NCBI GenBank assembly: GCA_031282205.1
Contig: JAITEE010000039.1
Span: 1-36,387 of the forward strand
DNA: 36,387 nt
From: Candidatus Methanovirga aequatorialis
GTDB lineage: Archaea > Methanobacteriota > Methanobacteria > Methanobacteriales > Methanobacteriaceae
Direction: 5' to 3'
Part shown: piece by piece, positions 1,502 through 31,702 of the stretch
Position numbering within the stretch: the stretch's first letter is position 1
Layout: each line of letters begins with the position of its first letter
Translations under genes and position numbers: made by a program
The notes under the pieces: model-generated
The model's input: only the letters and a program-made list of their open reading frames with translations
Told to the model about the DNA's origin: nothing
Databases searched by the model: none

Positions 1502-4093
1502 ATGAAAATACTAAATAAATTTATGAAATTTAAGAGTAGTAAATATTTTTTAGGTAAGAGAAACCCACCCATATTATTATATCTCTATCCCATTATTCTT
1601 TTAAGTGTATTATTATTGGTTGCTGCACCTAACACGCTTGTTAACGACACAGGTGATAGTCAAATATACACTGATAATAGTAGTAGTGTGGTGTTTAATT
1701 GCACTGCCACACCAATTAGACAAGATTTTAATAATAATGGTCTGGTTCAAATGAATATAACCTCATCAGAGACAGTAAATAAAACATTCAAAATTATCAT
1801 GGACGATAAACAATACACAACCATGTTAAATGGTAACAATAGCAATAATATAACTTCTGATGTATTCACAACGGAGAATAGTATTAATAAAACCATAACT
1901 GTACTGGATCCAACCAACAATAATACTATTAACTTGAATGTGAATTTTGAAAATATTAAACTCATAAACTACGATATAACACCAAACACTAAAACCATTA
2001 CTATAACTCAAGATACTCCTAATGGAATCCAAGAAGCTATTAACAACTCTAATGATGGAGATACAATAATATTAAAAAATGGAATCTACAAACAATGTAA
2101 TATTACTGTTAATAAGGGCGTGACTATAAAAGCAGAAACAAAAAGCGGAGCAATAATAGACGCAGAAGGACAAGGACGAATATTCAATGTAACAAACACC
2201 AATGCAGTCTTAGATGGGTTAAACATAACAAACGGAGAAGCACCTAATATTAGTGTTGGTGGTGGTGATGGTGGTGGTGTATACCTTAATGGTGGTAGTG
2301 TGACAAATTCTACTATCACCAACTGCAATAGTACTCATGGTGGTGGTATATACATTAATAATGGTAATGTGACAAATTCTACTATCACCAACTGCACTAA
2401 TCGTGGTGGTGATGGTGGTGGTGTATACCTTAATGGTGGTAGTGTGACAAATTCTACTATCACCAACTGCACTGGTGGTGGTATAAACCTTAATAATGGT
2501 AATGTGACGAATTCTACTATCACCAACTGCACTAGTGATCGTTATGGTGGTGGTATAAACCTTAATAATGGTGGTGTGACGAATTCTACTATCACCAACT
2601 GCCATAATGGTGGTGTATACATTAATAATGATGGTAGTGTGACGAATTCTACTATCACCAACTGCACTGGTTATGGTTGTGGTGGTGTATACATTAATAA
2701 TGATGGTAGTGTGACGAATTCTACTATCACCAACTGCAATGCTTATTATGGTTGGAGTGGTGCGAGTGGTGGTATACACCTTAATAATGATGGTAATGTG
2801 ACGAATTCTACTATCACCAACTGCACTAGTGATCGTTATGGTGGTGGTATACACCTTAATAATGATGGTAATGTGACGAATTCTACTATCACCAACTGCG
2901 CTAGTTATAATCGTGGTGGTGGTGTATATCTTAATGGTGGTGGTAGTTTGATGAATTCTACTATCACTAACTGCACTAGTAGTAATGAGGGTGATGATGA
3001 TGCATGGGGTGGTGGTGTATGCCTTGATGGGAGTGGTAATGTGACGGGTTGTACTATCACCAACTGCACTAGTGATCATTGTGGTGGTATATTCCTTAAT
3101 GGTAGTGGTAGTGTGAGTTATTGTCGTATTGTTGATAATAATGCACTTGATGGAAAAGAAGCTTATATTAATAATAGTGGCAGTGCTGACTTTAATTGGT
3201 GGGGTGCTAATAATATCACTCAGCTCATAAATGGTAGTGTTGTGCCTAGTAGTTATTATCAACTCCTATTAACAGCTGGAAATGTTTCAACGGTTGATGA
3301 GGTTAAAGATTATTTTGGAATGGTACCAATATCTTTGGGTTGTGGTTTGGTTCTTAATGGGACCGATGATTCTACTGGTAGTAATAATTTGCCTGATTTC
3401 ACTGGTAACACTACATTAAGTAATGTTTCGAGTCATGATCTACTATTATTTAGAGATGTTGTGAGGAGTTTTACTCCAGGTAAATCCAATAGTTTTAATG
3501 TTCCTAATGGATGGAATGACACTCTAAACAGTCAGGGTAGGTATAATTATACTGGTGTTGTTGACAATCAAATTTTAGATATTAACATTATTGATAAAGA
3601 TCTTAAGAGTGTGAATCTTGTTATTTCTAAGACTTGTAATGTTACTAATGTTGTTGTTGGTGATGTTATTGGTTACACAATCAAGGTAGTGAATAATGGT
3701 ATGGTGTCAGTTGCTAATGTTACTGTGAACGATACAATGAGTAATGATCTTAAATATATTAATAGTAATAGTAACAATGGAGATTATAATAGTAATTCTG
3801 GTTTATGGAGTATTCCTATTTTGGGTGTTGGTGAAATTGCTAATTTAAATATGACTTGTAGAGTTGTGGGTGTTGGTGATGTGATTAATAGTGCTCATCT
3901 GTTTTTAGGTGATAATAATTATATTAATGTTGGGGTTAATGATTCGAGTGTTATGATTAATAGTAAATCAGTTCTACATCCTGGTGATGATTCTAATTTG
4001 TTTTGGAGTGGTTTGCCTTTGACTGGTTTGCCTTTAGTTGTTTTGATTCTTTTTGTTTGTGCTTTGTTCGGTTATTTCCTTAGGAGAAGATAG
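1502..4093 (+). CDS. large adhesin-like protein: N-terminal membrane segment, right-handed beta-helix with VTNSTITNC repeats, DUF11-like domain, C-terminal LPLTG-TM-RRR
   Basis: 863 aa; N-terminal hydrophobic segment ILLYLYPIILLSVLLLVAA; 11 coils with V-T-N-S-T-I-T-N-C or close variants; DUF11-like 'LVISKTCNVTNVVVGDVIGYTIKVVNNGMVSVANVTVNDTM'; terminus SGLPLTGLPLVVLILFVCALFGYFLRRR. Confidence 0.9.
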   Translation: MKILNKFMKFKSSKYFLGKRNPPILLYLYPIILLSVLLLVAAPNTLVNDTGDSQIYTDNSSSVVFNCTATPIRQDFNNNGLVQMNITSSETVNKTFKIIMDDKQYTTMLNGNNSNNITSDVFTTENSINKTITVLDPTNNNTINLNVNFENIKLINYDITPNTKTITITQDTPNGIQEAINNSNDGDTIILKNGIYKQCNITVNKGVTIKAETKSGAIIDAEGQGRIFNVTNTNAVLDGLNITNGEAPNISVGGGDGGGVYLNGGSVTNSTITNCNSTHGGGIYINNGNVTNSTITNCTNRGGDGGGVYLNGGSVTNSTITNCTGGGINLNNGNVTNSTITNCTSDRYGGGINLNNGGVTNSTITNCHNGGVYINNDGSVTNSTITNCTGYGCGGVYINNDGSVTNSTITNCNAYYGWSGASGGIHLNNDGNVTNSTITNCTSDRYGGGIHLNNDGNVTNSTITNCASYNRGGGVYLNGGGSLMNSTITNCTSSNEGDDDAWGGGVCLDGSGNVTGCTITNCTSDHCGGIFLNGSGSVSYCRIVDNNALDGKEAYINNSGSADFNWWGANNITQLINGSVVPSSYYQLLLTAGNVSTVDEVKDYFGMVPISLGCGLVLNGTDDSTGSNNLPDFTGNTTLSNVSSHDLLLFRDVVRSFTPGKSNSFNVPNGWNDTLNSQGRYNYTGVVDNQILDINIIDKDLKSVNLVISKTCNVTNVVVGDVIGYTIKVVNNGMVSVANVTVNDTMSNDLKYINSNSNNGDYNSNSGLWSIPILGVGEIANLNMTCRVVGVGDVINSAHLFLGDNNYINVGVNDSSVMINSKSVLHPGDDSNLFWSGLPLTGLPLVVLILFVCALFGYFLRRR
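2296..3080 (+). repeat. intragenic near-identical repeats (GTGAC[A/G]AATTCTACTATCACCAACTGC) inside the adhesin
   Basis: The 27-bp core recurs with almost no mismatches nine times, with two further degenerate copies, separated by variable Gly/Asn-rich linkers. Confidence 0.9.
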
Positions 4094-4261
4094 ATTTATG
4101 GAGTGGGTAGGATTTTCTTTATGAAATCTTGTACTTTCTTTCTTAAAATTTTCCTTTTTTTAAGATCAAATAAGATTTCATTGAATATTCTACTGTCATG
4201 CGGTGAACCTTCATGGATTAATATGGTTAATGGTTTACAGGGTCTTTTGATCCATTGTAAT

Positions 4262-4556
4262 TGTCATTTTAAAACCTGAATAAAGCCCAATACTTGCAAT
4301 AAGCTCTTTTATAGTCTTTAGTAGGCAACATTTGCTTTACTATAAAAACTTCCCACTAAACTTCAAATTCAATGCGATTGAATTTGAATCAATTATTATG
4401 GCCTTAATATTCCTTATTTTTTTAAATTGAAGCTATATTTAATGTTTTTAAAGCTAATTCCAAGTATTTTGTACCTTACTACGTTGAATAAATCTCTCTT
4501 ATTTGTTCTATACTTTGGTAAGTCTTTAATACCAAGAAATTTCACGAAGCCTAAAC
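4262..4556 (-). pseudogene. degenerate transposase/IS remnant, copy 1
   Basis: About 300 bp strongly similar, in the same orientation, to 32338-32640 (shared AATAAGCTCTTTTATAGTCTTTAGTA[G/A]GCAACATTTGCTTTACTATAAAAACTTCCCACT). The reading frame is broken by stops. Confidence 0.75.
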
Positions 4557-4795
4557 CCTCCAGTTGTGGCAGATTTCATCAGACGATTGGGTAAAAATTT
4601 AGATAGAGGGATTAATCACATGAAATATAAGTTTTACCTCACACTAATAATAAGATTGAATGTTACAATTGTGTTTCTTTGACTAATGAGCAGAAAAAGA
4701 TTTATAGGACCTTTGAAGGACTTGATAGAGCAATTAAATTGGGTAGAATTAGATGGCATTTAAGAAATAGAAAAGAAATTTCTTTTTGTGAATAA
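4557..4795 (+). pseudogene. fragmented ORF, possible transposase remnant on the opposite strand
   Basis: Two open pieces in different frames: VVADFIRRLGKNLDRGINHMKYKFYLTL... and NNKIECYNCVSLTNEQKKIYRTFEGLDRAIKLGRIRWHLRNRKEISFCE*. Begins exactly where copy 1 of the other IS remnant breaks off. Confidence 0.4.
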
Positions 4796-5001
4796 TTTTC
4801 CAACTTATCACCATAATTTTTTCACAAAGCCACGTAACTCCATGAAGAATTTTATCATTTCTTTTTTCCTGGAATTAGGTGGAAAAGATATGTATAACTT
4901 CCCGTTTATTGATTGTACTCTATTCATGTTCTTGAAAACCCCATAGGATTCTGTCTAAGAGTGTTTTTTCTTGATTTTTTAAACAAATGGTTTTAGGAGA
5001 A

Positions 5002-5205
5002 TTAGAAAGATTTTGACAAGCTACTTGATCTAAATACATATCCTCCTTCATTCCATTCATCCAACCATCTATGCCCAGTTGATAAACTAATCTCCATTAA
5101 TTCACAAGCTTCTTCAACAGTCTTTTTTCTATATAAAAAACGAATAAAGATTAATTTTTTTAAAACATCACCTTCTTGCTGATGCCTACTGATAATTTTA
5201 TTCAA
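5002..5205 (-). pseudogene. IS630-like transposase N-terminal HTH fragment
   Basis: MNKIISRHQQEGDVLKKLIFIRFLYRKKTVEEACELMEISLSTGHRWLDEWNEGGY resembles the HTH of IS630-type transposases; no DDE domain follows. Confidence 0.65.
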
Positions 5206-5295
5206 CTGAGTTTTCTTAATACACTTTTTAACTTTTTTTAAACTTTATTTACCATATATAACAATTAACAAACATTACTCTTAAACTTTTCGATT

Positions 5296-5384
5296 TAAAC
5301 TATATATTAACAAAGTTACTATAAACAACGTGTACAGTCATAGAGGCAACTCTATAATTAATTTTGTATTATGGTGATAATTTA
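5296..5384. repeat. ~80-bp dispersed repeat, copy 1
   Basis: ATTAACAAAGTTACTATAAACAACGTGTACAGTCATAGAGGCAACTCTATAATTAATTTTGTATT matches 11490-11573 in the same orientation. Confidence 0.8.
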
Positions 5385-5404
5385 TCAAATTATTAATTTA
5401 ACTT

Positions 5405-5728
5405 TTATTCTACCATGACTAACTTTCCTGTTTTTGGATCTTTATAAACCTTTCCTACTTCCACCATGCCTTGACCTGAACCGTTTGACGTGTCTGGCAT
5501 CTGATCTAATTCTTTTCCTTGATCAATTTGAGAAACTGATTTCATTTGATCTTTTTTTTGTTCTTGAGTCATATTCCCATTGAAAGCTATTGATTGCATA
5601 TTCCATGACATTACTAAAAAAATTAATAAACCTACCGAAATAACTAACATTACATCAACTAAGTTTGTTGTTCCTGCCATCGGATCTTCTTCTATTCTTT
5701 GAGAACGTTTTTTTCTACGTTTAACCAT
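5405..5728 (-). CDS. small single-TM protein, DUF2149-type / ExbD-TolR-like
   Basis: Likely start MVKRRKKRSQRIEEDPMAGTTNLVDVMLVISVGLLIFLVMSW at 5728 (ORF track start 5767). A basic N-terminus followed by 'LVDVMLVISVGLLIFLV' mirrors the Asp-containing TM of ExbD/TolR. Confidence 0.75.
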   Translation of the reverse strand: MVKRRKKRSQRIEEDPMAGTTNLVDVMLVISVGLLIFLVMSWNMQSIAFNGNMTQEQKKDQMKSVSQIDQGKELDQMPDTSNGSGQGMVEVGKVYKDPKTGKLVMVE

Positions 5729-6013
5729 ACTATCTCGACATTGTAAAAAATTCACATGATGGTACATAATTTTTTATGTGTATTTTTTGAGTGCTACTGA
5801 ATTAAAATCGTTAAATATATAATGTTGTAAAAGACAAATTATTTGTAGGTGTGGGTTTAATTTTGATCATATTAATATTCATTGACATACACCCATTTAA
5901 AGATTATTAACCAATTAAATTACTATTTAAACTAAAATAAAAACACAATGCAAAAATCCACAAACCCCTTTAGTCTATCATGGATCTTTTACAGTATCTT
6001 TTTTTTATTATTT

Positions 6014-6673
6014 TCATATTTTTTTATTGCTTTTTAGAAAATCTAATACTGCGTCAGATAAAACATCTAAATTAGATAAATACTCATCATACCATCTTTT
6101 TCTAATTTTAGAGACAAAGTAACCTACAGCTCCTGAAGCTACACCTACAACTGTTGTATCAAATGCAATAATAATTGATTGTGCGAGGGTATTAACATCC
6201 CCATTACCAAGTGCTGCTAATCCTGGACCCATTGGAATTAAGGTCCCCATTAATCCTAATGTAGGCCCAATACGAGTCATAATATCTGTTTTCTCAAGAA
6301 CTTTATCTATTGAATTTTCTTCATTTTCAATTAATTTACGAGCTAAAGCTTCACTAGATTCTTTCGATAAATCGTTTGCAGAAACTAACTGAGTTAAATC
6401 ATTTTTTTGCATATTAGAAATAAAAGAAGCAGATATGATATCCTTAACATACTTTTCATTATCTGCCAATGAAATATCATGAATTAATTTTTCTATATGA
6501 GAAACAGGTATTTTTTTTCTATTTATATATTCATATATCAACTCTCCAATAACCATAACCGCATAAAGTATAAAAATTAATAATAAAATTATTACAGGAA
6601 TTAATAAATTCTGAGAAATTAAATTTAAAGAACCATTTAAAAATTCACTGCCAGGAATAATACTTGAAACCAT
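6014..6673 (-). CDS. MotA/TolQ/ExbB proton channel family protein
   Basis: 219 aa; 'IGPTLGLMGTLIPMGPGLAALGNGDVNTLAQSIIIAFDTTVVGVASGAVGYFVSKIRKRW' is the hallmark ExbB/TolQ TM2-TM3 region. Confidence 0.9.
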   Translation of the reverse strand: MVSSIIPGSEFLNGSLNLISQNLLIPVIILLLIFILYAVMVIGELIYEYINRKKIPVSHIEKLIHDISLADNEKYVKDIISASFISNMQKNDLTQLVSANDLSKESSEALARKLIENEENSIDKVLEKTDIMTRIGPTLGLMGTLIPMGPGLAALGNGDVNTLAQSIIIAFDTTVVGVASGAVGYFVSKIRKRWYDEYLSNLDVLSDAVLDFLKSNKKI

Positions 6674-6706
6674 AAAAAAACTCCTATTTATTAAAATAAT
6701 AAAAAA

Positions 6707-8149
6707 TCATAATCTACTTTTATGCCCCATATATCCTAAAGCAAATAAACTCATTATTAAGAATATTAAAGTTAATACCATTGATAAAGGAGAATCGTTG
6801 CCAGAATTAGGAGAGTTAGTTATTTCATGAACTTTCCCTTGCTCCCCTGAATCTGCTTTTCCTTGCTCCCCTGAATCTGAAGCATCAGACGCCCCATCTA
6901 CATTGCTATGCGAACCTGACATTGATAATGATTCTGGTGATGATGGATCAGTTCCTGGCGTAGGATCAGTTCCTGGCGTAGGATCAGGATTAGGTGTAGG
7001 ACCAAATTCAGGACCACCCAATGTAAATCTTCCAATTAAATTATTATTATTTTGTAAATTAGTTAATGTTGTATTGTTAAATTTAGCACCTGTTGCATTA
7101 TCAACAATTGCTGCTCGATCACCTGAAGCCTTAAAAGTATTATTCATAAATCTATCAACAACCTTATCAAACCCAGAGCCTTTAACTGCATAATAGTAAA
7201 TCGGTTGACTAGGATCATCTAAAACTTTAGAACCTTTATCAGAAACTGAGATTACATTATTCTCCACTTTAAAAATATTCGTTAAAACATTATTAATACC
7301 AATAGCTTCATAAATATGACTTTCTGCAATTGCGAGATAATCATCAAGATCATGAATACGATTATTAGTAATAATAGCATTATCACATCTACCAACCATA
7401 TTAATACCTATTGAAGCACCACTAATATCATTACCATTGATAACTGAATTACGAGCATCTAATTTAACACCCCAGCAAGTATTAGAAGGTGAACCAACAA
7501 TGGTATTAGTGTTAATATTATAATTTGATCCTCGTGCATCCACTACATTTCCTCCTTGATGAGTTTTATTACCAGAAGAGATATAATTACTAATTACATC
7601 AATGTTTTTATTATCATCATGCATATAAAGACAAGTACTTGCTCCAGTTTTCTTAAAAGTATTAGATTCCATAGTTATAAAAGAAGAATCACTCACCTCT
7701 ACTGCATATCCAGTAAAAGCACCTTTAAAATCAGTGATACGAGAAACAATGTTGTTTTTTAATGAAATATGATCAGTGCCAGTTATATAAATGAGACCAT
7801 GTTCATTAATCCCTGTAGAAGTTAATCTTATCCCAGACAAACTTGATCCTTGACTTCCACCCACAAATTCAAATCTTCCTTCAATAATTTGATTATTTGG
7901 AGCGTTACTTGTGATTATCAATCGTTTATTGATTATAAACACTTTAGGATTATCAGGAGTTCCATGTATATCACCAATTTTAAGGGTGTCTCCATCATTA
8001 ATACCTGAAGTTGGTTTAATATTTCCATTATCATCAAAATAATTTGAATAATTTGAATCATCAATTACATGCACAGCTCCACTAACAGAACTCATACATA
8101 AAATCATACAAAAAATAGTTAATAACCCTATCGACTTTTTAAATCTCAT
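6707..8149 (-). CDS. adhesin-like beta-helix protein with signal peptide, Pro/Thr-rich stalk and C-terminal TM
   Basis: Signal MRFKKSIGLLTIFCMILCMSSVSGA; repeated 'I..N.I'/'NTF' coils; NPDPTPGTDPTPGTDP stalk; SGEQGKADSGEQGK duplication; C-terminal PLSMVLTLIFLIMSLFALGYMGHKSRL. Confidence 0.85.
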   Translation of the reverse strand: MRFKKSIGLLTIFCMILCMSSVSGAVHVIDDSNYSNYFDDNGNIKPTSGINDGDTLKIGDIHGTPDNPKVFIINKRLIITSNAPNNQIIEGRFEFVGGSQGSSLSGIRLTSTGINEHGLIYITGTDHISLKNNIVSRITDFKGAFTGYAVEVSDSSFITMESNTFKKTGASTCLYMHDDNKNIDVISNYISSGNKTHQGGNVVDARGSNYNINTNTIVGSPSNTCWGVKLDARNSVINGNDISGASIGINMVGRCDNAIITNNRIHDLDDYLAIAESHIYEAIGINNVLTNIFKVENNVISVSDKGSKVLDDPSQPIYYYAVKGSGFDKVVDRFMNNTFKASGDRAAIVDNATGAKFNNTTLTNLQNNNNLIGRFTLGGPEFGPTPNPDPTPGTDPTPGTDPSSPESLSMSGSHSNVDGASDASDSGEQGKADSGEQGKVHEITNSPNSGNDSPLSMVLTLIFLIMSLFALGYMGHKSRL

Positions 8150-8366
8150 CTTACTTCACCTCTTCATTATTTCGACTAAAAGCATTTAAATTTAATTATT
8201 TTTTATAAAAATTCTCTAAATTAAATTTAAATAGATTATATTGGATATTTTATAATTAACAAACTTTACCAAAATCATTATAATATAAAATAGAAAAAAT
8301 AAAAGAAATATAAATTTTTAAAACTTGTACCTCATTGGAAACGTCTGCTGGGCAACAATACACAAA

Positions 8367-9938
8367 CTAATTAACATTAAAAATATCTGTTGGTCTATTA
8401 TTCCTAAAATTTCCATTAGTAGCATTATCTATGTTTAGAATTCCATGATCATGATAAATTGCCCCACCTTTATCTGTTGCCGTATTAGAACTCAATATAG
8501 AATTAATTAATGTTAAATTTGCATAATAGCTATTAATCGCACCACCATTATGTGCTTGATTCATGCTCATATTACATTTATTAATAGAAATATTATTGGC
8601 ATTCATAATGTTGATTCCACCACCAACATTAGCTTTATTGTCTTCAAATTTACTATTGGTCACGTTCACATTCTTTGGATAAACACTTTGAGTATTGAAA
8701 GCAGGAGGTGCTATACAAATTGCTCCACCATAGTCCGTTGCAACGTTATTAATAAACTCAGAATCCATTATTTTTAATTCCTCATTATTTGATCTAAATG
8801 GTTGGGTTTTTATAGCTCCACCTTCACCAGCACAATTATTAATAAACGAACATTTAATAACCTCTAATTTACCATTATTACAAATTGCTCCAGAATTACT
8901 ACCAGAACTATATCCACTGGTAACCCTGTTATTAATAAACTTTGAATTTAAAACAACAGCACTACCATCAACATCAATAGCACCACCAGAGTGCGGTGCA
9001 TAATTTTCATTAAAGAGTGAATTATTGACTGTAAGTTTTGCATTTCCTCCTGCATTAGTTATTACACCACCACTGTAACCATCCTCAGATAATCCATTTC
9101 TTGTAAAATTAGAATTATCAATATTCAAATTACCCTCTTCATTAGTTATGGCTCCAGAATAACCAAATCCACTACCTCCTGCACTATTATTTATAAATGA
9201 AGATGATTTTATATTAACATTAGATGAACCACCCTGAAATATAGCTCCAGCCTGTGAATCAGCATGATTATTACTAAAATTAGAATATTCAACAAACAAA
9301 TTAGTTCGATCAGCCATATATACAGCACCACCAATTCTATAATTACCATTAACTTCACCATCATTTACATTATGATCAAAAGAACTACGAATTATAGTCA
9401 AATTAGATTTTCTTGCACTGTATATTGTTCCACCATAAACGTCTCCATCACATTCTGCATGATTATCAATGAATTCTGAATCATTAAGACTAAGATCACC
9501 ATAGTTAGAAATACATCCGCCACAAGCATAGTAACCATTAGGGTCTGTTACACTGCAATTATATAAGTGACATTTATTCAGTGACAGAACTCCTTTATTA
9601 AGTATTCCACCGCCTTCTTCTAAGTCTTTACCATTTTTTATTGTTAAACGACATATGGTAACTTTAACACCTTCACCTACATGGAATACTCGATTGTATC
9701 CTTCTGCATCAATGATCGCATCATTACCATTAATATTAATATTCTTGGTGATGCTAATATCACGACTTCCATCACCTTTATACAAATTTAAATTTTTTAA
9801 ATTGATTGTTGTCCCATTTGGTGCATCATCAATTAATTCTTGTATTGTTTTTACTTTTGACTCATTTTGTGGTAATGCACAAAGAGTAGAAGATAAAAAA
9901 ACAATCAATATTATTATTAAACTCATTTTTTTCTTCAT
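8367..9938 (-). CDS. adhesin-like beta-helix protein, secreted, no C-terminal TM
   Basis: Signal MKKKMSLIIILIVFLSSTLCALP; many 'SxFxNNxAxxGGAI' coils; ends FRNNRPTDIFNVN. Confidence 0.88.
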   Translation of the reverse strand: MKKKMSLIIILIVFLSSTLCALPQNESKVKTIQELIDDAPNGTTINLKNLNLYKGDGSRDISITKNININGNDAIIDAEGYNRVFHVGEGVKVTICRLTIKNGKDLEEGGGILNKGVLSLNKCHLYNCSVTDPNGYYACGGCISNYGDLSLNDSEFIDNHAECDGDVYGGTIYSARKSNLTIIRSSFDHNVNDGEVNGNYRIGGAVYMADRTNLFVEYSNFSNNHADSQAGAIFQGGSSNVNIKSSSFINNSAGGSGFGYSGAITNEEGNLNIDNSNFTRNGLSEDGYSGGVITNAGGNAKLTVNNSLFNENYAPHSGGAIDVDGSAVVLNSKFINNRVTSGYSSGSNSGAICNNGKLEVIKCSFINNCAGEGGAIKTQPFRSNNEELKIMDSEFINNVATDYGGAICIAPPAFNTQSVYPKNVNVTNSKFEDNKANVGGGINIMNANNISINKCNMSMNQAHNGGAINSYYANLTLINSILSSNTATDKGGAIYHDHGILNIDNATNGNFRNNRPTDIFNVN

Positions 9939-12554: not shown

Positions 12555-13691
12555 ATGCCGATTCTATCGTTTGGAAGTCAGAATATTGACCTTATAACAG
12601 GGGTAAAAACAAGCACAATACGGAAGTTATGGAAAATTCCTTTGAAAAAAGGGGACAGGTTACATTGCTATTGGAACTTGGTATCTAAAGAAAAGAAAAA
12701 GATATTTGAAGCCAAAGTTGTAGAAGTGGTTATCGTAGAATATAAAGATTTGAAAAGTAACAATGAAATAGCCATCAAAGAAGGATATAGTAGTGCCAAA
12801 GAAATGGTAAAAGAATTCAAGAAAATGTATGTTGATAAGTTGAAAAACGATGATAAATTCCAGATTATACACTTTAAAAAACTAAGTGTGGATGAGTGGG
12901 AAGGGGAAAAGATTGATGAGAAGGCAATGATAACACAAAGAGCGGATATTTTATTTGACAGTGGGAAATATGACAAATCTGAACTTTGTTATTCTGCCGC
13001 TTTAAAATTTGATCCCAATGATGTCTATCTCTTAAATAAAAAAGGAGATAATTTAAGTAGAATAGGTAAATTTCAAGAAGCTGTTGAATGTTATGATAAA
13101 GCATTGACCATTGAAAAAAACAATGAACATATATGGAATAACAAAGCCATTGTTCTTTTAAACCATGAAAAACCAAAGGAGGCATTGGAAAATAGTGACA
13201 AAGCAATGAGTTTAAATTCAAAAAATCCTTCTATATTGTATTGGAGAGGATTTATTCTCCAAGTTTTAGGAGAACTTGACGGTGCACTTGAAACCTATGA
13301 TGCCCTTATTAAAATCGATGAACGAAACCCAGAAGCATGGAATGCAAGAGGTAATCTTTTAGCAGAAATGGATAGACACGAAGAAGCATTGAAATCTTAC
13401 AATAGAGGATTAGAACATTGTTTTGATGTAAAAGATATCGATCCAATAGCTCAAAATAGGAAAGGAAATGCTCTTCTTGATCTTGGAAGATATGGGGAAG
13501 CGTTAGAAGCTTATGATGAAGCCATTAATCTCGATAAAAATAATGAATGGTTTTGGTTAAATAAAGGTGTTGTTCTTTTAGAATTGAGAAGATTTGAAGA
13601 AGCGAACACAACATTTATCAAGGTTCTTTCAATAAATCCCAACAACGATGATGCTCGGGTTTTAAGAGATGAATGTTTAGAAAATATGTGA
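12555..13691 (+). CDS. ASCH-like N-terminal domain fused to TPR repeats
   Basis: N-terminus 'LSFGSQNIDLITGVKTSTIRKLWKIPLKKGDRLHCYWNLVSKEKKKIFEAKVVEV' looks like an ASCH domain; C-terminal TPRs such as 'GKFQEAVECYDKALTIEKNNEHIWNNKAIVLLNHEKPKEALENSDKAMSLN'. Confidence 0.8.
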   Translation: MPILSFGSQNIDLITGVKTSTIRKLWKIPLKKGDRLHCYWNLVSKEKKKIFEAKVVEVVIVEYKDLKSNNEIAIKEGYSSAKEMVKEFKKMYVDKLKNDDKFQIIHFKKLSVDEWEGEKIDEKAMITQRADILFDSGKYDKSELCYSAALKFDPNDVYLLNKKGDNLSRIGKFQEAVECYDKALTIEKNNEHIWNNKAIVLLNHEKPKEALENSDKAMSLNSKNPSILYWRGFILQVLGELDGALETYDALIKIDERNPEAWNARGNLLAEMDRHEEALKSYNRGLEHCFDVKDIDPIAQNRKGNALLDLGRYGEALEAYDEAINLDKNNEWFWLNKGVVLLELRRFEEANTTFIKVLSINPNNDDARVLRDECLENM

Positions 13692-21578: not shown

Positions 21579-22520
21579 TTAAAGCATGACGTTTATTGGG
21601 TGGTCTTCTACAGTCTCAGTACCTATATCCTTAGCCGCTTCAGCTATAAATATATCTGCCATAGCACATGCAGGAAATGCAGTTTTAGCATTTTCAATAG
21701 GACCAAAAAGTACAAAATCACCGCCAGCCATTTGCTGAACAAGGTTTGAGCCAACATCACAAACAGGCCATGCTTTCATATTTTCCTCATTTTCCTTCTT
21801 GTACGTTCTTAACCAATCCCAAGCAGAAGGTACATTGTGAATACCAGAACCAACAGGTAATCCCCATTTACTTTTGACAGCGAAAGAAGTTCTTACAGCA
21901 ACTCCAGCACCTTGACCAAGAGGAGTTATAGCAACATCCATCAATGGTTTAGTAATACCACAGGATTCAGCCAATGGAAGTAAACCTTGATCGATTGTTC
22001 CAGCACCATCTTCCCATATTCCAATTTTACCCTCAACGGTAGGATTCATTGGGTTAAAACCTAAAACAATGGAAGCTGATAAGTCAGATTCTTTAACAGA
22101 TTCAATCTCATCTGCTTCTGCTGCCATGTTGATGGAGTTATAAATAGCTCTTTCTGAAATACCAGCTTCAGATGCATATTTAGCACCAGCAACTCTTGCA
22201 GCACCAGAAGTTGAATCTATAAGGAAAGGTGCATCTGTGAAATCACCTACAAATTCCAAGTACTTAACCAAAGCCTCTTCTGTTTGTCCAAAAACTTGAA
22301 CTAAACATGGATTTTTAGTCACGTCAGACATTTCCTCCATTGTTTTTATTCTTTCCTCTGCAGCATCTTTATCAAAAACACCTGCTTTTTCATCACTAAT
22401 AATATTATGACCACCATAAAAGATGGTTCCTGCTAAGACCGTTGGATATTCTCCTGGTTGACCTCCAATTTTCACACCAGCAATATCCAAAACTTCTTGT
22501 TCTTTATCAAATCTAAACAT
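21579..22520 (-). CDS. mtrH: tetrahydromethanopterin S-methyltransferase subunit H
   Basis: MFRFDKEQEVLDIAGVKIGGQPGEYPTVLAGTIFYGGHNI...; last gene of mtrEDCBAFGH. Confidence 0.97.
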   Translation of the reverse strand: MFRFDKEQEVLDIAGVKIGGQPGEYPTVLAGTIFYGGHNIISDEKAGVFDKDAAEERIKTMEEMSDVTKNPCLVQVFGQTEEALVKYLEFVGDFTDAPFLIDSTSGAARVAGAKYASEAGISERAIYNSINMAAEADEIESVKESDLSASIVLGFNPMNPTVEGKIGIWEDGAGTIDQGLLPLAESCGITKPLMDVAITPLGQGAGVAVRTSFAVKSKWGLPVGSGIHNVPSAWDWLRTYKKENEENMKAWPVCDVGSNLVQQMAGGDFVLFGPIENAKTAFPACAMADIFIAEAAKDIGTETVEDHPINVML

Positions 22521-22544
22521 TTATAAAAACCTCCACCTTAGAAT

Positions 22545-22778
22545 TTAAAGCCCTTTAAAAAAGTACATAAAGAAGTAATTAAATACAACAATTATTATTA
22601 TGCCTATTAATATACCGTATACTATACCTATATCTCTACCAAGTTGGTGACCCAATCTTTGATAGTATTCACCAACGGCGAACTCAACGTTCTCTTCAAT
22701 TTCATCTAGTTTTTCATTAGCTTTATTGAAGTCATCAGCAGAAACAAGTACTCTTGGTATTGCGTTTTCATCAGACAT
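22545..22778 (-). CDS. mtrG: tetrahydromethanopterin S-methyltransferase subunit G
   Basis: 77 aa, [40 protein letters not shown]; operon position. Confidence 0.95.
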
Positions 22779-22795
22779 TTAATAGCACCTCTTAA

Positions 22796-23002
22796 TTAAC
22801 CGCCACATAACTTGACCAACAATGGAATTACTAAAGCCAAAACAAAAGCAATTGTTACACCATACGTCATTCCAGTTACTCGTGTGCTGATTAAACCAGC
22901 GAATAATCTTCCATCTCTACCAATTAATTTGGATTTGTAATTAGCATCTTCAGCAACACTTCTAATGCCTTTTATATTAGGTTTATTTGAGAATTTAACC
23001 AT
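22796..23002 (-). CDS. mtrF: tetrahydromethanopterin S-methyltransferase subunit F
   Basis: 68 aa, NKPNIKGIRSVAEDANYKSKLIGRDGRLFAGLISTRVTG; operon position. Confidence 0.95.
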   Translation of the reverse strand: MVKFSNKPNIKGIRSVAEDANYKSKLIGRDGRLFAGLISTRVTGMTYGVTIAFVLALVIPLLVKLCGG

Positions 23003-23018
23003 TAATAAAACCTCCTAT

Positions 23019-23741
23019 CTATATAAACATAGCTATGCATCCAAATATTATGGTCATAACAAGTCCAATCATTATGCCTTGAACTTTTCCTGCGTAGGTT
23101 CCAGCGAACGTTCTTTGAACAGCACCAACCAATTTGATTTGAGTTTGAATATTCCTCATACGTGCTTCAATTAACGCTGTTTCAGCAGATACAGGTCTGA
23201 CTTCTTCACCATCATCTTCATCTTCACCATCATCATCCACAGAAATGAGAAGAGCTTCTTCTTCAAAGGCACCTGGATCTTTTTCTATACATTCTTTTAC
23301 TTTAGCTTCGATTTGACCAGCGTCTTCTACATCAATTAAATTTACAATTTCAACCTGTTGTTGGAATCTTTCAACTCCTTCATCGGGTACATTTTCAACA
23401 TAAGGAATAGCACCAGTCGCACCAACAATACTTCTTTTTTCAGGATCTACACCGTTTTGATGTAGTGCTTCAATACTTTGACCTGTAATATGTCCTTGAA
23501 CTTCAGATCCACATAATATTAGAAATCTAATATTTGGGTTGGAAATAATGTTAGCAACAACCTTCTCAACACCAAGATTTTCTGTTTTACAAGGTCCTGC
23601 AATAGCAGCACCAGCTGCAGCAGGAACATCTTCATTGTGAGATGCGAGTGTTGCAACAGCAACAGGACTCTCAGGATTTCCTGCAATATAATCTCCATTT
23701 ACAGGAGGCCAAGTATCTATAGTATCTTTCTTATCTACCAT
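23019..23741 (-). CDS. mtrA: tetrahydromethanopterin S-methyltransferase subunit A (corrinoid-binding)
   Basis: 240 aa, [79 protein letters not shown]. Confidence 0.97.
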
Positions 23742-24074
23742 CTATAAAACCCCCAAATAAAAGTGTAATACTGGAATTACAGCAAACAATATCAAAAGAC
23801 CTAATAAAAACCCATAAACTATATTAGTTAAGATACCAGCAGTTAAAAATACACCTTCCCTTTTTGGAAAAGCATCAATAGGAACCGTATTAGGATCCAA
23901 AGAATTAACTAACTCATTTGCCGCTAATTCCAAAGTTCCGATTTCTTTATTTATATCATCCATCGATAAAATTAAAACTTCCCTTCCAAGAGCTGCACCA
24001 ATTGAACCAGTAGATGGATCAAGTGTTAAACTATATTCAGGAACAATTTTAATCAAAGGTAACATTTCAACCAT
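23742..24074 (-). CDS. mtrB: tetrahydromethanopterin S-methyltransferase subunit B
   Basis: 110 aa with C-terminal TM; between mtrC and mtrA. Confidence 0.95.
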
Positions 24075-24085
24075 GATTTTACCCC

Positions 24086-24919
24086 CTATTCCTCAACTTT
24101 AGGCCATAACCCTGCCCATTTAACAGATGCGGCCTCTTTATAGGATGCTGAAACATAGACTTTAAAGAGCACTATCCAGCCAATCAAACCAACAACGGAT
24201 ATAACCAAAGATGTAGGAATTCCAGCCCAATGAAGATCTGGATTTCCAATAGAGATAATACCAGTAATAACCATTGATAAAAATCCAGTTGCACCTGCCA
24301 ATTTAAGAGTTCTCATTTGATTTTCATTTGGACCAAGACATGCATTGAACGGGTGTTGAATAGCCATTGTATTCATTATAAAGAATAATGCTATGTAACC
24401 AGGACCTACTACAAGAGATAATATTTTAACAAAGTCATAACTACCTGCAAAAGCTGCAGAAAAACCAAGAACAGATAACGCAGCAGCACCAGCAATTTCA
24501 GCAGTACATCTTTCCAAAACAGCGATTTTCATTTTAACAATCACTTTCGCAATAACGGCAACAATTAAACCCAAAAGCATAGATAAAACTAAGGCAAGAA
24601 CAGGACCAGCAATTGCAAATCCTTTTAATAAAGAACTTGATGCTATCGCAAGACCAGCCAAAGCCCCTATAATACCAATAGAAAGGGACATATAACCTAT
24701 AGAAGGTACACCAGTACCTAATCCATAACTTGCAACTCTTCTAATTGCATCAGCACCCCACACTATAGCACAAACTGCTCCAAGAGAAGCGAATGTTGGA
24801 CCAATAACAGGATTAATAGGAGCTAAGTATATACCAATCAATCCTCCAATTATACCTATGGCAATTAATAATTCACCAGAGATTGCAGAACCAGTAGAAC
24901 CTCCACCAGCAGCAGACAT
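24086..24919 (-). CDS. mtrC: tetrahydromethanopterin S-methyltransferase subunit C
   Basis: Likely start [18 protein letters not shown] at 24919, overlapping the mtrD stop (TAATG); the ORF-track start at 24985 lies inside mtrD. Confidence 0.95.
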
Positions 24920-25623
24920 TATACAACACCTCCAAGAGTTAAAGCATATACAAATACAGCCATAATAACAGAAGCTATACCACAAGCAACGATTCCACTA
25001 CCAACTCTCTTAAATTTAGGATCATGGAATCCTTCAATAGTACCTCCAATATTATAGGAAGCAATAACAGAATTTATGAAAAATATACTCACGGATACGA
25101 TGGCCGCTAACCCACCAGCAATTTCGGGGCTGATTCCTGATAATCCACCAAAAGTATTATTAAGTGAATAGTACAATAATCCTCCACCAGCACCACCAAG
25201 TAAACCACCGATGATACCACTGACAAAACAGACCGTAGGAATACCATGACCTTCAGTACCAGAAGTCACGTATTTTTCTTGATTTCTACCAGTGATTGGG
25301 TCAAATTCAACCTTAGCAGAAGAAGGCACAACACCAACACCAAAAATGTAGATTATGTTAGCAACCAACATTGTAATTCCCATCATCATCATCGCTCCAA
25401 CTGCACCACCCAAAGCAATCATCCAAGGTGGTTGGCCTGTCATAGATGCAGCAGTGATTAAACCAGTTAATCCAGCACCTGCTGCAAGCATTGCAGTACC
25501 AGTTCCAACACCAGTAGCTGTAGCCATAGCCGCAGGAGCACCTCCTACAGGTATGAAGTGTACACCTCCACCAATGAGAATTCCACCAACAGTAATGAAA
25601 ATAATTAAAGTTATAGGATCCAT
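24919..25623 (-). CDS. mtrD: tetrahydromethanopterin S-methyltransferase subunit D
   Basis: Likely start MDPITLIIFITVGGILIGGGVHFIPVGGAPAAMATATGVGTG at 25623. Confidence 0.95.
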   Translation of the reverse strand: MDPITLIIFITVGGILIGGGVHFIPVGGAPAAMATATGVGTGTAMLAAGAGLTGLITAASMTGQPPWMIALGGAVGAMMMMGITMLVANIIYIFGVGVVPSSAKVEFDPITGRNQEKYVTSGTEGHGIPTVCFVSGIIGGLLGGAGGGLLYYSLNNTFGGLSGISPEIAGGLAAIVSVSIFFINSVIASYNIGGTIEGFHDPKFKRVGSGIVACGIASVIMAVFVYALTLGGVV

Positions 25624-25636
25624 AAATGAAAACCTC

Positions 25637-26515
25637 CTAATCCTCTTTATATGGTCCATATTTATTTCTTGCAAAATTCTCAAGCCTCTCATTGAGAACA
25701 AAAACTATAAGAACTATAATAAGACCAGCAATTAAACCACCGAACAATCCAAAAACAGCAGTTATCCAAAAACTTAAAAAGACAATAGCACCGAAACAAA
25801 AACCAGTTAAAGGTCCACCAAACTTAGCACAGAAATTACCAACATCAATAGAGTTTCTTGCACCTAATTCAGCTTTAGTGGTAATGTCTCCATGAACAGC
25901 TACTGGAATACCTCCACCAAACGGATATTGTTGAAATTCTCTTTCAGCACCATAATGTACATCTCCAGTTGAAGAACCAATTGCACCAAGAGTAATACCC
26001 CATAAAACAGCCAACAATGGAAGAGGGAATGGATTTAAAGGGTTACCATTAATTGGCATGATCATCAAAGAACTAATACCTACAATACAAAAGTAGGTTA
26101 TAAAACCATGTCCAGCAATAGGACCTAAGGATTGCATTAAAGCATCCATAAACAATGGTTGTCCAAATTGGGATTGACTTACAATCCTACCCATATGAGA
26201 AGTGACTGTATAAACTACATGAACTAAAGCACCAACTGCAGCACCAACAGCTACTGCAAGAATCGGTATTAAATGTAAATTCATTAAAACAAATGCAACA
26301 GTTCCTGCAATACCACAAAAAGCACCATAAGCAAGTGGTTCACCAGAAATAGCTTTATTTAAAAACCGGTGTAAATGTCCCATCTGAGGAGCAAGCTGAA
26401 CTTGTGAGTTAGGGTTACTCTGAGAACCAACATCAGATTCTAAATCTTCTGATGCTCCAGCAATAGTAGCAGCCGCACCCATTAATGCAACAACACCTAA
26501 TGTCAAAGGATCCAT
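25637..26515 (-). CDS. mtrE: tetrahydromethanopterin S-methyltransferase subunit E
   Basis: Likely start MDPLTLGVVALMGAAATIAGASEDLESDVGSQSNPNSQVQLAPQMGHLHR at 26515. Confidence 0.96.
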   Translation of the reverse strand: MDPLTLGVVALMGAAATIAGASEDLESDVGSQSNPNSQVQLAPQMGHLHRFLNKAISGEPLAYGAFCGIAGTVAFVLMNLHLIPILAVAVGAAVGALVHVVYTVTSHMGRIVSQSQFGQPLFMDALMQSLGPIAGHGFITYFCIVGISSLMIMPINGNPLNPFPLPLLAVLWGITLGAIGSSTGDVHYGAEREFQQYPFGGGIPVAVHGDITTKAELGARNSIDVGNFCAKFGGPLTGFCFGAIVFLSFWITAVFGLFGGLIAGLIIVLIVFVLNERLENFARNKYGPYKED

Positions 26516-26631
26516 ATTTTTTTCCTCCAAAATACAAAATTTCCATTTAATCAAATATTTAACTAACCATATTTTATCTAAAAGAGAACATTAAGTTGCT
26601 TTTTGACAAGCTTAAATGTTTTCTAATTATT

Positions 26632-26676
26632 TCAAAAAAAAAGAAAAGAAAATAAATAGGTGTTCTAACACCTATT
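26632..26676 (-). terminator. intrinsic terminator/attenuator-like hairpin between mcrA and mtrE
   Basis: Perfect 10-bp inverted repeat AATAGGTGTT-CT-AACACCTATT (26655-26676) overlapping the mcrA TAG stop. In transcript orientation it is followed by a U-rich tract (complement of AAAAAAAAAGAAAAGAAAATA). Confidence 0.75.
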
Positions 26677-28327
26677 TAGCAGGTATAATTAAAGATCTTT
26701 CACCATCAGGCATGAATTCTCTTAATGCTCCTTTTGCAATTTCAGCACGAGGTTGAGAGAAGTCGAAACTTAAGTTTTTATCTGCAAATGCGATTTTAAC
26801 CAATGGGTTAAATGTAAATGCATCTTTTCTTGCTGCATGAGGAGCTTGAGCAATACCTGCATATTCACCTTGGTGACCTACATTCATAGCATAGTTAGGA
26901 TAGTTTGGTCCTCTTAATTCAACAGGTAAACCTTCATCATTCCTTATAGAGAATACATTAGATGCACCACATTGATCTTGTAAATCGTAACCATAGAATC
27001 CTAATCTTGAATGTTGTTCTTTGTGTAGGTACATAGATAGGTACCATGCACTTAAACCAGTTTGGGAGTTTCCAGTTGCAAAGGCAGTTGAAATACCCGC
27101 AGCTGCTGAAACAATAGAAGCTCTTTGAGAACCACCGAATTGAGTTTCAAGTAAAGCAGGATATTCTTCATATTGTTCTAATCCGTAGAAGGTAACTTCA
27201 GAACCAACATCAAGGACTGTATCCATGTTGTTAGGAGCCTTGGTTAATCCACCATATTTATCTTCCACGTACTCTTTACCGTAGTAAGAAAAGTCATCAA
27301 GAACGTTGTCTGTGTATGCGGCAGATGCATATTGAGTAAATCCTACTCCACCAGACATGTATGAACCCAACCAAATTTGGTCGTAAAGTGCGGCTGACAT
27401 AGCAACAACATCCAATGATACTCTAACAGGATCATCAGAGTTAACTCTTGAGGATTGACAAATATCAGCCATGTATCCGAATGGAATTCCTCCAGGTTCA
27501 TTTTCAGCTCTTGCTCTTCTAACAGGTAAATATGTACCCATGTGAATGACTTCTGCATGTTTAGATGCGTAAGCAAAGTCACCAGTAGCTCCTTCACCAG
27601 CACATTGGTTGTAAGCCGAAATCATTGACATACCGATTTGCATTGCAGACCATCTGGAAGTTGTACCTCCATCACAGACTCTTCCTACGATAGAAGGAAT
27701 TCTTACTACCTGCCAAATTTTGTCTCCAACTTCTGCTTTTAAAGTTTCAGCTTGCTCAGATGGGAACTCCTTGTTAATATCCAAAACAAATGCAGAATCA
27801 ATTTCATCAGCTAACTCATCATCACCAGTGAATACTTTCACATAACTGTCTGCAACCAAAGAAGGGTTGGTTTCAACCATGTGCTCTTGTACAACAGCTG
27901 CACCTGGCATAGCGTGATTAACAGTTTCTAAGTAATTTGTAATAGTTTCTGGAGTAACTTCCATACCCAATCTTTTTTCAAGAACTGTGTGTGCTGTGTT
28001 TAAACCAACGACAACGGTTCTTCTAATATCATCCCACATCTGTTGGATAGCCGCATTGTTAACAAAATGGAAATCGTCACCTTCAACAAAGGTATCCGTG
28101 GTTGATACTTGGTAAGGCATTAATGCTCTCTGACCTAACGGAGAACCAACATCTGGGTTGTATTGAGGAATTCCTCTTTTTGCAGCTATTTCTTTACCTG
28201 CATTATAAAATTCAGTTTTCCTTTCAGACTGTTTCCATCCACCTAAGTTATAAAAGGTGGTGGTTTTATCTTCAGGATCTTCTTTAAATTTCTCTGTTAA
28301 TGCTTTTAAGAACTTTTTATCCGCCAT
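26672..28327 (-). CDS. mcrA: methyl-coenzyme M reductase subunit alpha
   Basis: 551 aa; [40 protein letters not shown]..., [51 protein letters not shown]. Confidence 0.99.
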
Positions 28328-28341
28328 AATAATTACCTCCC

Positions 28342-29091
28342 TTATTCAGGGCAGAATCCTCCTTCGGATCTTGTAACATGGATTTTATGTAAAATTTCCA
28401 CGGCATCTTTATCGTCTTTGTAAGCTTCACCATCTACTCTGTAGATTGTAGTTTTACTCTTCAAAGTCTCTTCATCCAATGGTTCACCAAGAACAACAGG
28501 TTCGTCAAGTTCTTTACCTATTTGATCCTTTACCATTTCAACCTTGCCAGTTTGTTTGTTGAAAACTTGTCTTCTGAGCATGTCGAACATGACACCATTT
28601 TCATCAAGTCTTAAAGAGTGACCATGAACTGATTTTCCTCTGATACCTGTTCTTGCAGGGTCAAAATATTCAGTTTCTAATAATTCTTTAGAAATTCTTT
28701 CTAAATCTCTTTCCCTTGCTTCTATAATCTGTCTACCAGATAAAGTACCAGCATCTACACCCCTATATCTGTTTAAGTAAGATCTTGATCTTAAGTAAGG
28801 TTGAGCTGGAGCAAAATACATTGAATCTACAAACTGTATGTATCTTACCCTATCACCAGCTTTTGCACCGTCAATAGGTTCAACAATTTCTCTAATGTAA
28901 TCATCAGGCTCATCCATTTCATCTAATGGTGGGTGAACACTTTTATATTCTTCACCTGGAGCTCTGTGACCTAATATTTTTACTACACTCTCATCAGAAA
29001 TTTCTCTTAGTTTCTCTAATTTATAGTTAGGATCTGTGAAATTTCTTCTATTTTGAGCAACTTGTGTAGTTCCTGGATAATATTGCACCAT
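28342..29091 (-). CDS. mcrG: methyl-coenzyme M reductase subunit gamma
   Basis: 249 aa; [57 protein letters not shown]. Confidence 0.98.
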
Positions 29092-29094
29092 AAA

Positions 29095-29691
29095 TCATAC
29101 ACCTCCTAATGCTAACTTAATTTTTCTAATAATCTCATCTAACTTATCTTGAGGGCAAGTTTCTCCCCTAATAACCCCAGTAACAATATTCAAAATTTGA
29201 CCTTTAGTTTTGACCTCATCAGGCATTACCTTAGATGTCTTAACACCTATCTTAGCAAAGTCTTCAAAGTCAACAGGATACTCGCAAATGATTACACAAG
29301 GTCTATTCGTATTTCTTAAAATTAGTCTTGCCTTGTAAATAAGATGATTTCTAACTCCTCCTAAATGTATTGCAAGAAGTTTAAATCTATTCATTTGAAG
29401 AATTTCTTTTTCTGTTAACCCAAACAGACTTCCTCCACCTACATGAGGAACATCACCTGGAACACCAGCACCAGCATTTAATATCATTGTACTCGTTAAA
29501 ATGTTGGCTTCACGGAGGGCGAAAGTTATTTCACAAACTGGTTTTGTAATATGTCTTTTACCTGGAGACATCCCAATGGCCAGTAAATCCGATCCACATT
29601 CAGCAAATGTACCTCTTTGGGCAATTCCTCCACCTTCACCGAGACCCATTGTCTCTCTACAGTCAACAACGTGAGTAGATTTTCCAATCAT
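29095..29691 (-). CDS. mcrC: methyl-coenzyme M reductase operon protein C
   Basis: 198 aa; [54 protein letters not shown]. Confidence 0.97.
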
Positions 29692-29861
29692 GATATCTAT
29701 TATATATATGCAGTATGGTTTTTATAATGAATAACTTAAATTTTTAATATTAAAATTTCTTAAAACCTTATAAGAATATTTTTAAAATCTTTATAAGAAT
29801 ATTTTTGAAAGTTCATATCAAAATATTTAAAATTGTGTACCTTTGATAAAACCAAATATGA

Positions 29862-30314
29862 CTAACCTCTTTTAAGAATCGTCACTCTGTCTTTAAGTTT
29901 TGCTGATTGATCAGTCATTCCAATTAATTCATCAGGAATATTCCCATTACCATACTTTATATTATCAGAAACGGTTTTTTGAGTACGAATAAATTTCCCA
30001 ATATCGATATCGAAGCCAAAAGGCAATAACTCTCTACATACTTCATCGATGTTATCCTTAACCTCAGAAACATCGAAGTCATCAGAAACATCAATAAAAA
30101 TACGACCCGTTTTTACCTTGAGATCAATTTCTTTACCATGAACATTGATGACGCGTCTTTCAGCATATTTTGGATTTTCATTAGGATCTTCAGGTGGAAG
30201 TCTTGGTCCTTGAATTATCGTTCTTTTAACACCATCAAGGGCTTCAATTTCATTTAACAACATTTCTGTTCTATCTGAACCTAAAATCCTATGTGGGAAC
30301 ACTTGTAAATCCAT
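29862..30314 (-). CDS. mcrD: methyl-coenzyme M reductase operon protein D
   Basis: 150 aa; DLQVFPHRILGSDRTEMLLNEIEALDGVKRTIIQGPRLP. Confidence 0.97.
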   Translation of the reverse strand: MDLQVFPHRILGSDRTEMLLNEIEALDGVKRTIIQGPRLPPEDPNENPKYAERRVINVHGKEIDLKVKTGRIFIDVSDDFDVSEVKDNIDEVCRELLPFGFDIDIGKFIRTQKTVSDNIKYGNGNIPDELIGMTDQSAKLKDRVTILKRG

Positions 30315-30367
30315 GTTTTTTTCCTCTAAGATTCATTAGATTTTTTTTTATTTTATTTTGAGATTAC

Positions 30368-31702
30368 TTAGATTTGGCCTTTAATATCGGCAGCTGCCTC
30401 CACAACATATTTGAGTGGTTCTCTAAATTCATCTACACTACTAAATACTTCTTTAATTAATCCAGAAGTTGATTCTGGTGAGAAAAGTTGAGTACCTGCA
30501 TCTAAACACATTGCAGCCACAACACAAGGGATACAGAATCCTTTACTGTGTCTTGTAACAACATGGTTACCATTGAATAGACCAGGACCTCCTCCACCAT
30601 AGATAGAGTGGCTAAAGAACGAAAATCCTACAGCTACACCTTCAGCTCTACCGAAATCTACTCCTGGAAGACCAGTTGCAAACTCGATTGAATCATTGAA
30701 ATATAGAATACTGGAAGGTACACCTTGAGCAGCTCTTGCAGCTCCAACATTTACCATAACAGCAGCAGCTGAACCAGCAGCAGCATAAGCATTCCATTTC
30801 GCTAAATCATTAGCAGCATATTCAGTGAATCCATTAAGATCTTTTTCTGCTTTAATTACACCATCAGCTGAAGCTTTTTCAATGGTTCCATTAATCACGT
30901 TACCAATGGTTCCCTCTTTAGCAGAATCATTAACCAAATCTAAAACAAAGTTGTCTGCATTCATACCTTGATAAGCTAAACCTAATAAATGTAGTCTTTC
31001 AAAAGCACCAACAGCATCTCCCATTTCAAACATAGCAGTTTGTTCTAAAATAGAAGAAAGTGCAGTTCCTTGTAAAGTATTTTTTAAAGTAGCAGCAGCT
31101 ATATGGTTAGCCATAATATTTCTTAAAGCATATCCTCCACCTTCAAGCTTTTGTGGAATATCCAGCATAGTTGCAAGGTTAGAACCCATATAATCAACAG
31201 ATTGAGGATATCTACCTAAAATCGCTGCTTTTACCATGTTAGCATTGTACATATCCACTTCATCAAACTGGTTAATGATGGCTTGTACCAAAGCAGTAGA
31301 TGTAGCCAATGTAGATACAGAATATTCTGCTGCAACATTTAACCTAGCATTTGGAATTTGGACTAAAATTCTTTTTCCACCAGCTAAAAGTTCTACCTTT
31401 GTATCATCACCTTCAGTTACTTGAATCATTTCTTTGATTGACTCTGCAAGAGCACCAGCATTTCCTAAAAGATCAAGGTCAACTTCTCTTCCTAAAATCT
31501 TACAAGCTTTTCCACCGACACTAGCAGTCCTCAAAGCATTTTCTATACCTTCTAAGTTCACAGCTACAGTCCTTTTAATACCATTTACGATACTTTTAAT
31601 AGCAGGATTACGTAGTGGACTTAATGCTTCGATAGGTACTCCAGATTCAACTAAGTTACCTCTGTCGTCGTATAGATCGACTTTATCATCAAACTTCGCC
31701 AT
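30368..31702 (-). CDS. mcrB: methyl-coenzyme M reductase subunit beta
   Basis: 444 aa; [54 protein letters not shown]... [29 protein letters not shown]. Confidence 0.98.

Follow-up and report, generated by a model that had tools for sequence, protein, structure and literature searches.

The locus analysed here belongs to Candidatus Methanovirga aequatorialis, whose genome assembly is 85% complete and whose closest named relative is Candidatus Methanovirga australis; known members of the lineage come from termite guts, and among the members of the genus are intracellular partners of flagellates from termite guts (PMC13135261). Within the window, i.e. the whole analysed stretch of 36,387 nucleotides, three genes of the minus strand follow one another, encoding a beta-helix surface protein, an ExbB/TolQ/MotA-family channel subunit and a DUF2149 protein. 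These three ORFs lie where an earlier note on this DNA had placed them, and the 33 bp that it gave between the surface-protein gene and the ExbB gene is correct. The features of the locus are listed in Table 1.

Table 1. Features of the surface protein-ExbB-DUF2149 locus (window coordinates)
Feature	Position	Strand	Basis
DUF2149 protein, putative ExbD-like stator subunit	5405..5728	-	PF09919
Intergenic dispersed (MITE-like) repeat between the ExbB and DUF2149 genes	5729..6010	.	Repeat matches, inverted repeats
ExbB/TolQ/MotA-family channel subunit, 219 aa	6014..6673	-	PF01618, conservation, fold match
Secreted right-handed beta-helix surface protein, 480 aa	6707..8149	-	Signal peptide, model, Foldseek
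C-terminal tail of the beta-helix protein, proposed to couple to the stator	6710..6829	-	CobN-only tail model
Tail parts: HEI; spacer; TM helix; GY; basic end	HEI 6821-6829; TM helix about 6722-6790; GY 6731-6736	-	
Secreted beta-helix protein with PMP-type repeats, no tail	8367..9938	-	PF02415, E 9.2e-13
Secreted paralogue of the 6707-8149 ectodomain, without linker, tail or TM helix	9986..11074	-	36% identity

Surface proteins and stator-type subunits of the locus

The description of the first gene product as a secreted, TM-anchored beta-helix protein is borne out: in the AlphaFold model the signal peptide is followed by a beta-helix ectodomain (pLDDT mostly above 80 and in large part above 90), then by a disordered linker and lastly by a TM helix at the C-terminus (residues 454-476). 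Foldseek matches of this fold include polysaccharide lyases, phage tailspikes and the adhesin PfbA. An identity as a NosD copper protein (PF05048) was rejected, the match of 21.2 bits being under the cut-off of 23.6. The two further adhesin-like genes announced upstream on the same strand do encode secreted proteins of beta-helix type. The nearer one, a counterpart of which occupies the same position in Ca. M. australis, probably encodes a co-secreted partner; the farther one resembles the tailed protein over 390 alignment columns, the similarity stopping before the linker, and this tailless paralogue does not adjoin the ExbB gene. Beyond them, positions 12555-13691 encode an unusual protein in which TPR repeats are fused to an N-terminal ASCH domain. 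On the same strand as the surface-protein genes and some 10 kb upstream of them, mcr and mtr genes are found at 21579-31702 (Pfam-confirmed: MCR alpha, MCR beta, MtrH, MtrA, MtrC and MtrE); Mtr is a primary sodium pump of methanogens.

The assignment of the second gene to the ExbB/TolQ/MotA family was confirmed by profile search (PF01618, E 9.2e-11, 42 bits against a cut-off of 22.9) and by fold comparison, the best PDB match of its AlphaFold model being E. coli ExbB (5sv1; Foldseek E 2.6e-4, TM 0.62). The confidence of this model is moderate only (pLDDT 61); taken with conservation, it indicates the three-TM fold with long TM2 and TM3 helices and channel threonines, and Thr144, Thr173 and Thr174 are invariant in 124 relatives.

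The third protein matches PF09919 (DUF2149) with an E value of 3.8e-22 (78.9 bits against a cut-off of 27.1) and comprises a basic N-terminus, one TM helix with Asp25 (..NLVDVMLV..) and an extracellular C-terminus of about 65 residues, the final residues being GKVYKDPKTGKLVMVE. Conservation of the ExbD-like TM Asp had been set in advance as a check on the earlier reading: Asp25 and its flanking residues are invariant, Asp being found in 124 of 124 relatives. In a profile comparison of DUF2149 with ExbD (hhalign), Asp25 aligns with the ExbD Asp25 (P 5.4e-4, probability 30%). However, an hmmscan of all Pfam at E 0.1 returned DUF2149 only, without any match to ExbD/TolR (PF02472), and sequence searches of the PDB gave no ExbD match. 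We therefore refer to DUF2149 as ExbD-like in form and position; at the sequence level, homology to ExbD is only suggested.

One coordinate has to be corrected. The DUF2149 gene, whose start was initially taken at 5767, most likely begins at 5728: it is Met14 of the longer ORF that lines up with the first residue of almost every relative, and the 13 additional codons in front of it fall within or next to inserted sequence, at the edge of a dispersed repeat. This repeat largely makes up the 246 bp between the ExbB gene and the DUF2149 ORF as called, is matched 54 times in this genome, the longer matches being 74-85% identical, and contains imperfect inverted repeats; it is probably a MITE. In Ca. 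M. australis the repeat is absent and the gap between the two genes is only 46 bp. Because of this insertion, joint transcription of the ExbB and DUF2149 genes in the window is uncertain, and the repeat may alter DUF2149 expression. A remnant of a helix-turn-helix transposase-type gene (PF13384) lies just downstream of DUF2149, at 5002-5205.

Gene neighbourhoods in related genomes

A contig scan with a single DUF2149 protein gave only six loci and was replaced by a whole-genome search, which found DUF2149 in 123 of the 139 genomes of the family, often in multiple copies. The neighbourhood survey covers about 125 loci from these 139 genomes, with genes called as simple longest ORFs. In its commonest full form the order runs from a CobN-like surface protein (PF02514), with a signal peptide and a C-terminal TM helix, through DUF2162 (PF09930) and ExbB to DUF2149; many loci have DUF2162-ExbB-DUF2149 with no adjacent CobN. 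An outgroup family of the same order has an FmdE-domain protein, CobN, DUF2162, ExbB and DUF2149, and the CobN/DUF2162 arrangement is thus probably the older state. In a second type of locus, DUF2162 is missing and the gene immediately upstream of ExbB, in the same orientation, encodes a surface protein. A surface protein holds this position in 26 of the 28 DUF2162-less ExbB-DUF2149 pairs, compared with 8% of genes further away, although these rows are related and the binomial p is not to be taken literally.

The window locus is of the second type, with the beta-helix gene directly upstream of the ExbB-DUF2149 pair, and neither CobN (PF02514) nor DUF2162 was detected in the whole source genome, at its 85% completeness. 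The conserved adhesin neighbourhood that the earlier note expected in other genomes was found, the same three-gene order being present in Ca. M. australis and its equivalent in the DUF2162-less loci; the sister species and the family survey together rule out a chance adjacency of the three genes. As the usual partner is a CobN-like chelatase accompanied by DUF2162, partners of the adhesin type are best seen as derived replacements. On a joint ExbB-DUF2149 tree, obtained by a quick search, the second type is scattered, well-supported branches forcing at least five independent changes, one of them at the window locus, and the window pair groups beside DUF2162-type relatives such as M. cuticularis. 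One clade of about 10 loci deviates: its direct upstream partner has no C-terminal TM helix, and the TM-bearing protein encoded one gene further up does not have the full YEV/GY motif.

Several individual loci illustrate the variety of these arrangements. In the locus L053, a run at 3399-9885 comprises a tailed FmdE surface protein, a small anchored protein, CbiM, another small anchored protein, DUF2162, ExbB and DUF2149, so that an FmdE protein is here the tail-bearing partner beside cobalt uptake genes. Two loci of the outgroup family (L209 and L210) have tail-bearing surface proteins upstream of DUF2162-ExbB-DUF2149, namely CobN, split in L209 into two overlapping frames by a possible frameshift, and an FmdE-like protein judged by its tail and position. 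Another locus (L058) is a tandem of two ExbB-DUF2149 pairs from one genome that hardly differ from each other; no surface-protein gene adjoins the second pair. On an Aquabacterium plasmid (L199), a DUF2341-domain protein precedes two ExbD genes, possibly a bacterial stator with surface-type domains; a DUF2149 search of plasmids, aimed at bacterial hmu loci, gave no match.

A C-terminal tail shared by the partners of ExbB-DUF2149

Almost every partner that has a TM helix at its C-terminus carries a tail resembling the C-termini of the CobN proteins. Its common plan is a Ser/Gly-rich linker, a [K/N][A/S][Y/H]E[V/I/L] segment, a spacer of about 30 residues, a TM helix ending in GY, and basic residues; at the Tyr position, one large group of the CobN tails conforms less strictly (..KKSIEINP..). 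Of 47 tails, 44 have a spacing of 30-34 between the conserved E and GY, the value being 32 in 26 of them. We define the stator-linked tail class by E[VIL], an interval of about 28-36 residues and a GY ending the C-terminal TM helix, in a protein encoded beside ExbB-DUF2149, and the beta-helix protein of the window belongs to it. The tail is found on ectodomains as different as CobN, FmdE, beta-helix and DUF11 domains and giant PKD/propeller/beta-helix proteins.

With a tail model built from CobN proteins only, the 14 non-CobN proteins that are direct partners and have a C-terminal TM helix score 8.7-25.9 bits, versus a median of 3.0 bits for 68 other anchored proteins (Mann-Whitney p 1.6e-7); the window tail scores 17.3 bits and that of the sister species 24.0. 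Ten of the 68 non-adjacent proteins reach 8.5 bits or more; some of them have the full motif and may be unlinked clients, and others are probably noise. In its own genome the beta-helix protein is the only convincing tail carrier according to a model that includes the window sequence. With a model built without the beta-helix partners of the second type (A2), the window tail gave no genome-wide match at E 0.1, and the best match in the sister genome G128 had an E of 2.3e-4.

Across the family, strong tails (A2 model, E <1e-5) are present in 96 of 123 DUF2149-positive genomes versus 1 of 16 DUF2149-negative ones (Fisher p 2.6e-8, uncorrected for relatedness); a strongly scoring tail on CobN occurs in the fragmented DUF2149-negative genome G004. 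Of the six genomes of the genus, two have all of ExbB, DUF2149, the tail and the beta-helix family and the other four have none of them, a co-absence that concerns one linked locus in incomplete assemblies.

Discussion

Based on the comparative evidence presented here, we consider that, on balance, ExbB and DUF2149 probably form an ion-driven stator which acts directly on the tail-bearing surface protein, as if a TonB-like transducer had been fused to its load. In such a scheme, an ExbB ring around a DUF2149 pair would constitute the stator in the archaeal membrane, with an ion path lined by DUF2149 Asp25 and the ExbB threonines. The TM helix of the tail would dock beside ExbB, and the [Y/H]E[V/I/L] segment, just outside the membrane, would meet the outer part of DUF2149. 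Ion flow would then move or pull the tail and make the ectodomain cycle, the direction of movement and the ion being themselves conjectural. The load would be a CobN-like chelatase or an FmdE-domain protein in most relatives and, in the present species, a beta-helix protein of glycan-binding type; with no outer-membrane receptor, the motor would work directly on surface proteins. The glycan-binding type of the ectodomain in this archaeon suggests a powered engagement or release of glycan, and the purpose would most likely be to engage and release, or to retract, a glycan-binding protein in the pseudomurein wall, the least certain step of the scheme. An ion-driven stator working on surface proteins in a cell without an outer membrane had already been proposed in the earlier note. 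That idea gains from the recurrence of the neighbourhood, the invariant Asp and threonines, the shared tail and the joint absence of the components within the genus; what it had missed is that the usual partner is CobN with DUF2162, and that the link runs through a specific tail and not through adhesins as such.

The scheme borrows from several known systems. ExbBD and the sodium stator PomAB have both been described as combining an Asp with two threonines (PMC6677748, PMC12215075), and the match of this arrangement in DUF2149 Asp25 and the ExbB threonines supports the stator assignment. In TonB-ExbBD, the TonB TM helix binds ExbB, the D-box binds the periplasmic ExbD dimer, and rotation of ExbD has been proposed to pull on TonB (PMC12215075); the docking proposed here for the tail mirrors these contacts. 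Like ExbBD-TonB and TolQR-TolA, the archaeal system has an ExbB/TolQ-family subunit with channel threonines, a one-helix partner with a TM Asp, and a third component that combines a TM helix with a short extracytoplasmic motif. In contrast to them, it would operate in an archaeon without an outer membrane, with DUF2149 in place of ExbD as the small subunit; moreover, TonB and TolA are separate proteins with an N-terminal helix, whereas the proposed archaeal transducer lies at the C-terminus of the surface protein itself, as a fused tail (N-out, C-in). MotAB and PomAB belong to the same superfamily, and the resemblance of ExbB T144 and T173-T174 to PomA T158 and T185-T186 makes sodium coupling possible, but DUF2149 is too short to contain a peptidoglycan-binding domain, and a flagellar rotor partner is not to be expected in an archaeon. 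The adhesin-like proteins of Methanobrevibacter and Methanosphaera share a signal peptide, a beta-helix or Ig-type ectodomain and an anchor with the protein studied here; many of them, however, have other anchors, while the stator-linked class is recognizable by its YE[V/I]-TM-GY tail.

The usual Methanobacteriales arrangement resembles the hmuYRSTUV operon of Bacteroidota, in which a CobN-like protein with terminal TM helices is likewise encoded beside MotA/TolQ/ExbB and DUF2149 genes, and it additionally has DUF2162. The bacterial hmuSTUV genes, encoding CobN, ExbB and DUF2149, serve to take iron from heme (PMC12583661, PMC10434189). This precedent opens the question of whether the archaeal locus is devoted to metal or tetrapyrrole acquisition, with a NosD-like beta-helix capturing the ligand and the stator powering the uptake of cobalt, nickel, heme or corrinoid. 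The FmdE-CobN-DUF2162-ExbB-DUF2149 order of the outgroup genomes, the presence of the cobalt-uptake component CbiM within the same gene run in L053 and the weak NosD match of the beta-helix protein would all agree with such a function. Nevertheless, we regard it as unlikely for the window locus, which differs from hmuYRSTUV in having neither CobN nor DUF2162, both undetected in the source genome as a whole, and a beta-helix protein as partner. No TonB-dependent receptor or HmuY was found among the genes scanned around it, and no CbiM was seen beside it; the NosD match stays below the family cut-off, the beta-helix fold resembles glycan lyases, tailspikes and an adhesin, and large PKD/propeller/Ig proteins make up the other replaced partners.

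Archaea commonly use C-terminal sorting signals, and tail carriers also exist away from ExbB genes. The tail could accordingly be a membrane anchor or sorting signal and nothing else, ExbB-DUF2149 having another task and the linkage reflecting co-regulation or history. This is quite improbable in our opinion, because the tail and DUF2149 co-occur across genomes, the partners beside ExbB have been replaced repeatedly, and the NCBIfam models of C-terminal sorting signals did not match the tail. A generic anchor devoid of specificity is also at odds with the results of the CobN-only tail model and with the different anchors used by other surface proteins of the same genomes, including an 863 aa adhesin in the window which scores 3.0 bits in that model. 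Finally, it is very improbable that the stator powers the export, folding or pseudomurein passage of large surface proteins, in the manner of GldLM in type 9 secretion: the partners include many very large proteins (up to 2187 aa) and several tailless secreted surface genes occur in the same runs, but no secretion channel was recognized nearby, the CobN partners are enzymes that look permanently anchored and, judging from copy numbers, most surface proteins of these genomes have no linked ExbB.

The direct action of the stator on a tailed surface protein thus remains our preferred reading. Both the class of motor and the hmu-type group of genes were known before; the arrangement of the partners is new. 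In the open-licence papers searched, the archaeal arrangement, the replacement of partners and the tail were not described, and no literature on DUF2162 was found. ExbB/TolQ-type motors are understood mainly as machines acting across the Gram-negative periplasm. A 2025 survey of stators and stator relatives was based on genomes of bacteria, from 27 bacterial phyla (PMC12505986), and the use of archaeal HmuS/CobN homologues was called unclear in the 2025 HmuS paper (PMC12583661). To both studies the comparative pattern offers a concrete, testable answer: the partner bears a short coupling tail.

A broader proposal, to which we give somewhat less than an even chance, is that of a general Methanobacteriales motor, in which the ExbB-DUF2149 stator actuates any ectodomain equipped with the portable YE[V/I]-TM-GY tail, a transducer of TonB type acting in cis. 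If this is true, proteins of the CobN, FmdE and beta-helix types are interchangeable loads, and the same principle may explain what HmuU and HmuV do for HmuS in bacteria. The powered movement of archaeal surface proteins thereby becomes testable, with two mutable sites, DUF2149 Asp25 and the E and GY of the tail. These findings suggest that a TonB-like motor can serve a cell envelope that has no outer membrane, by working directly on its surface proteins.
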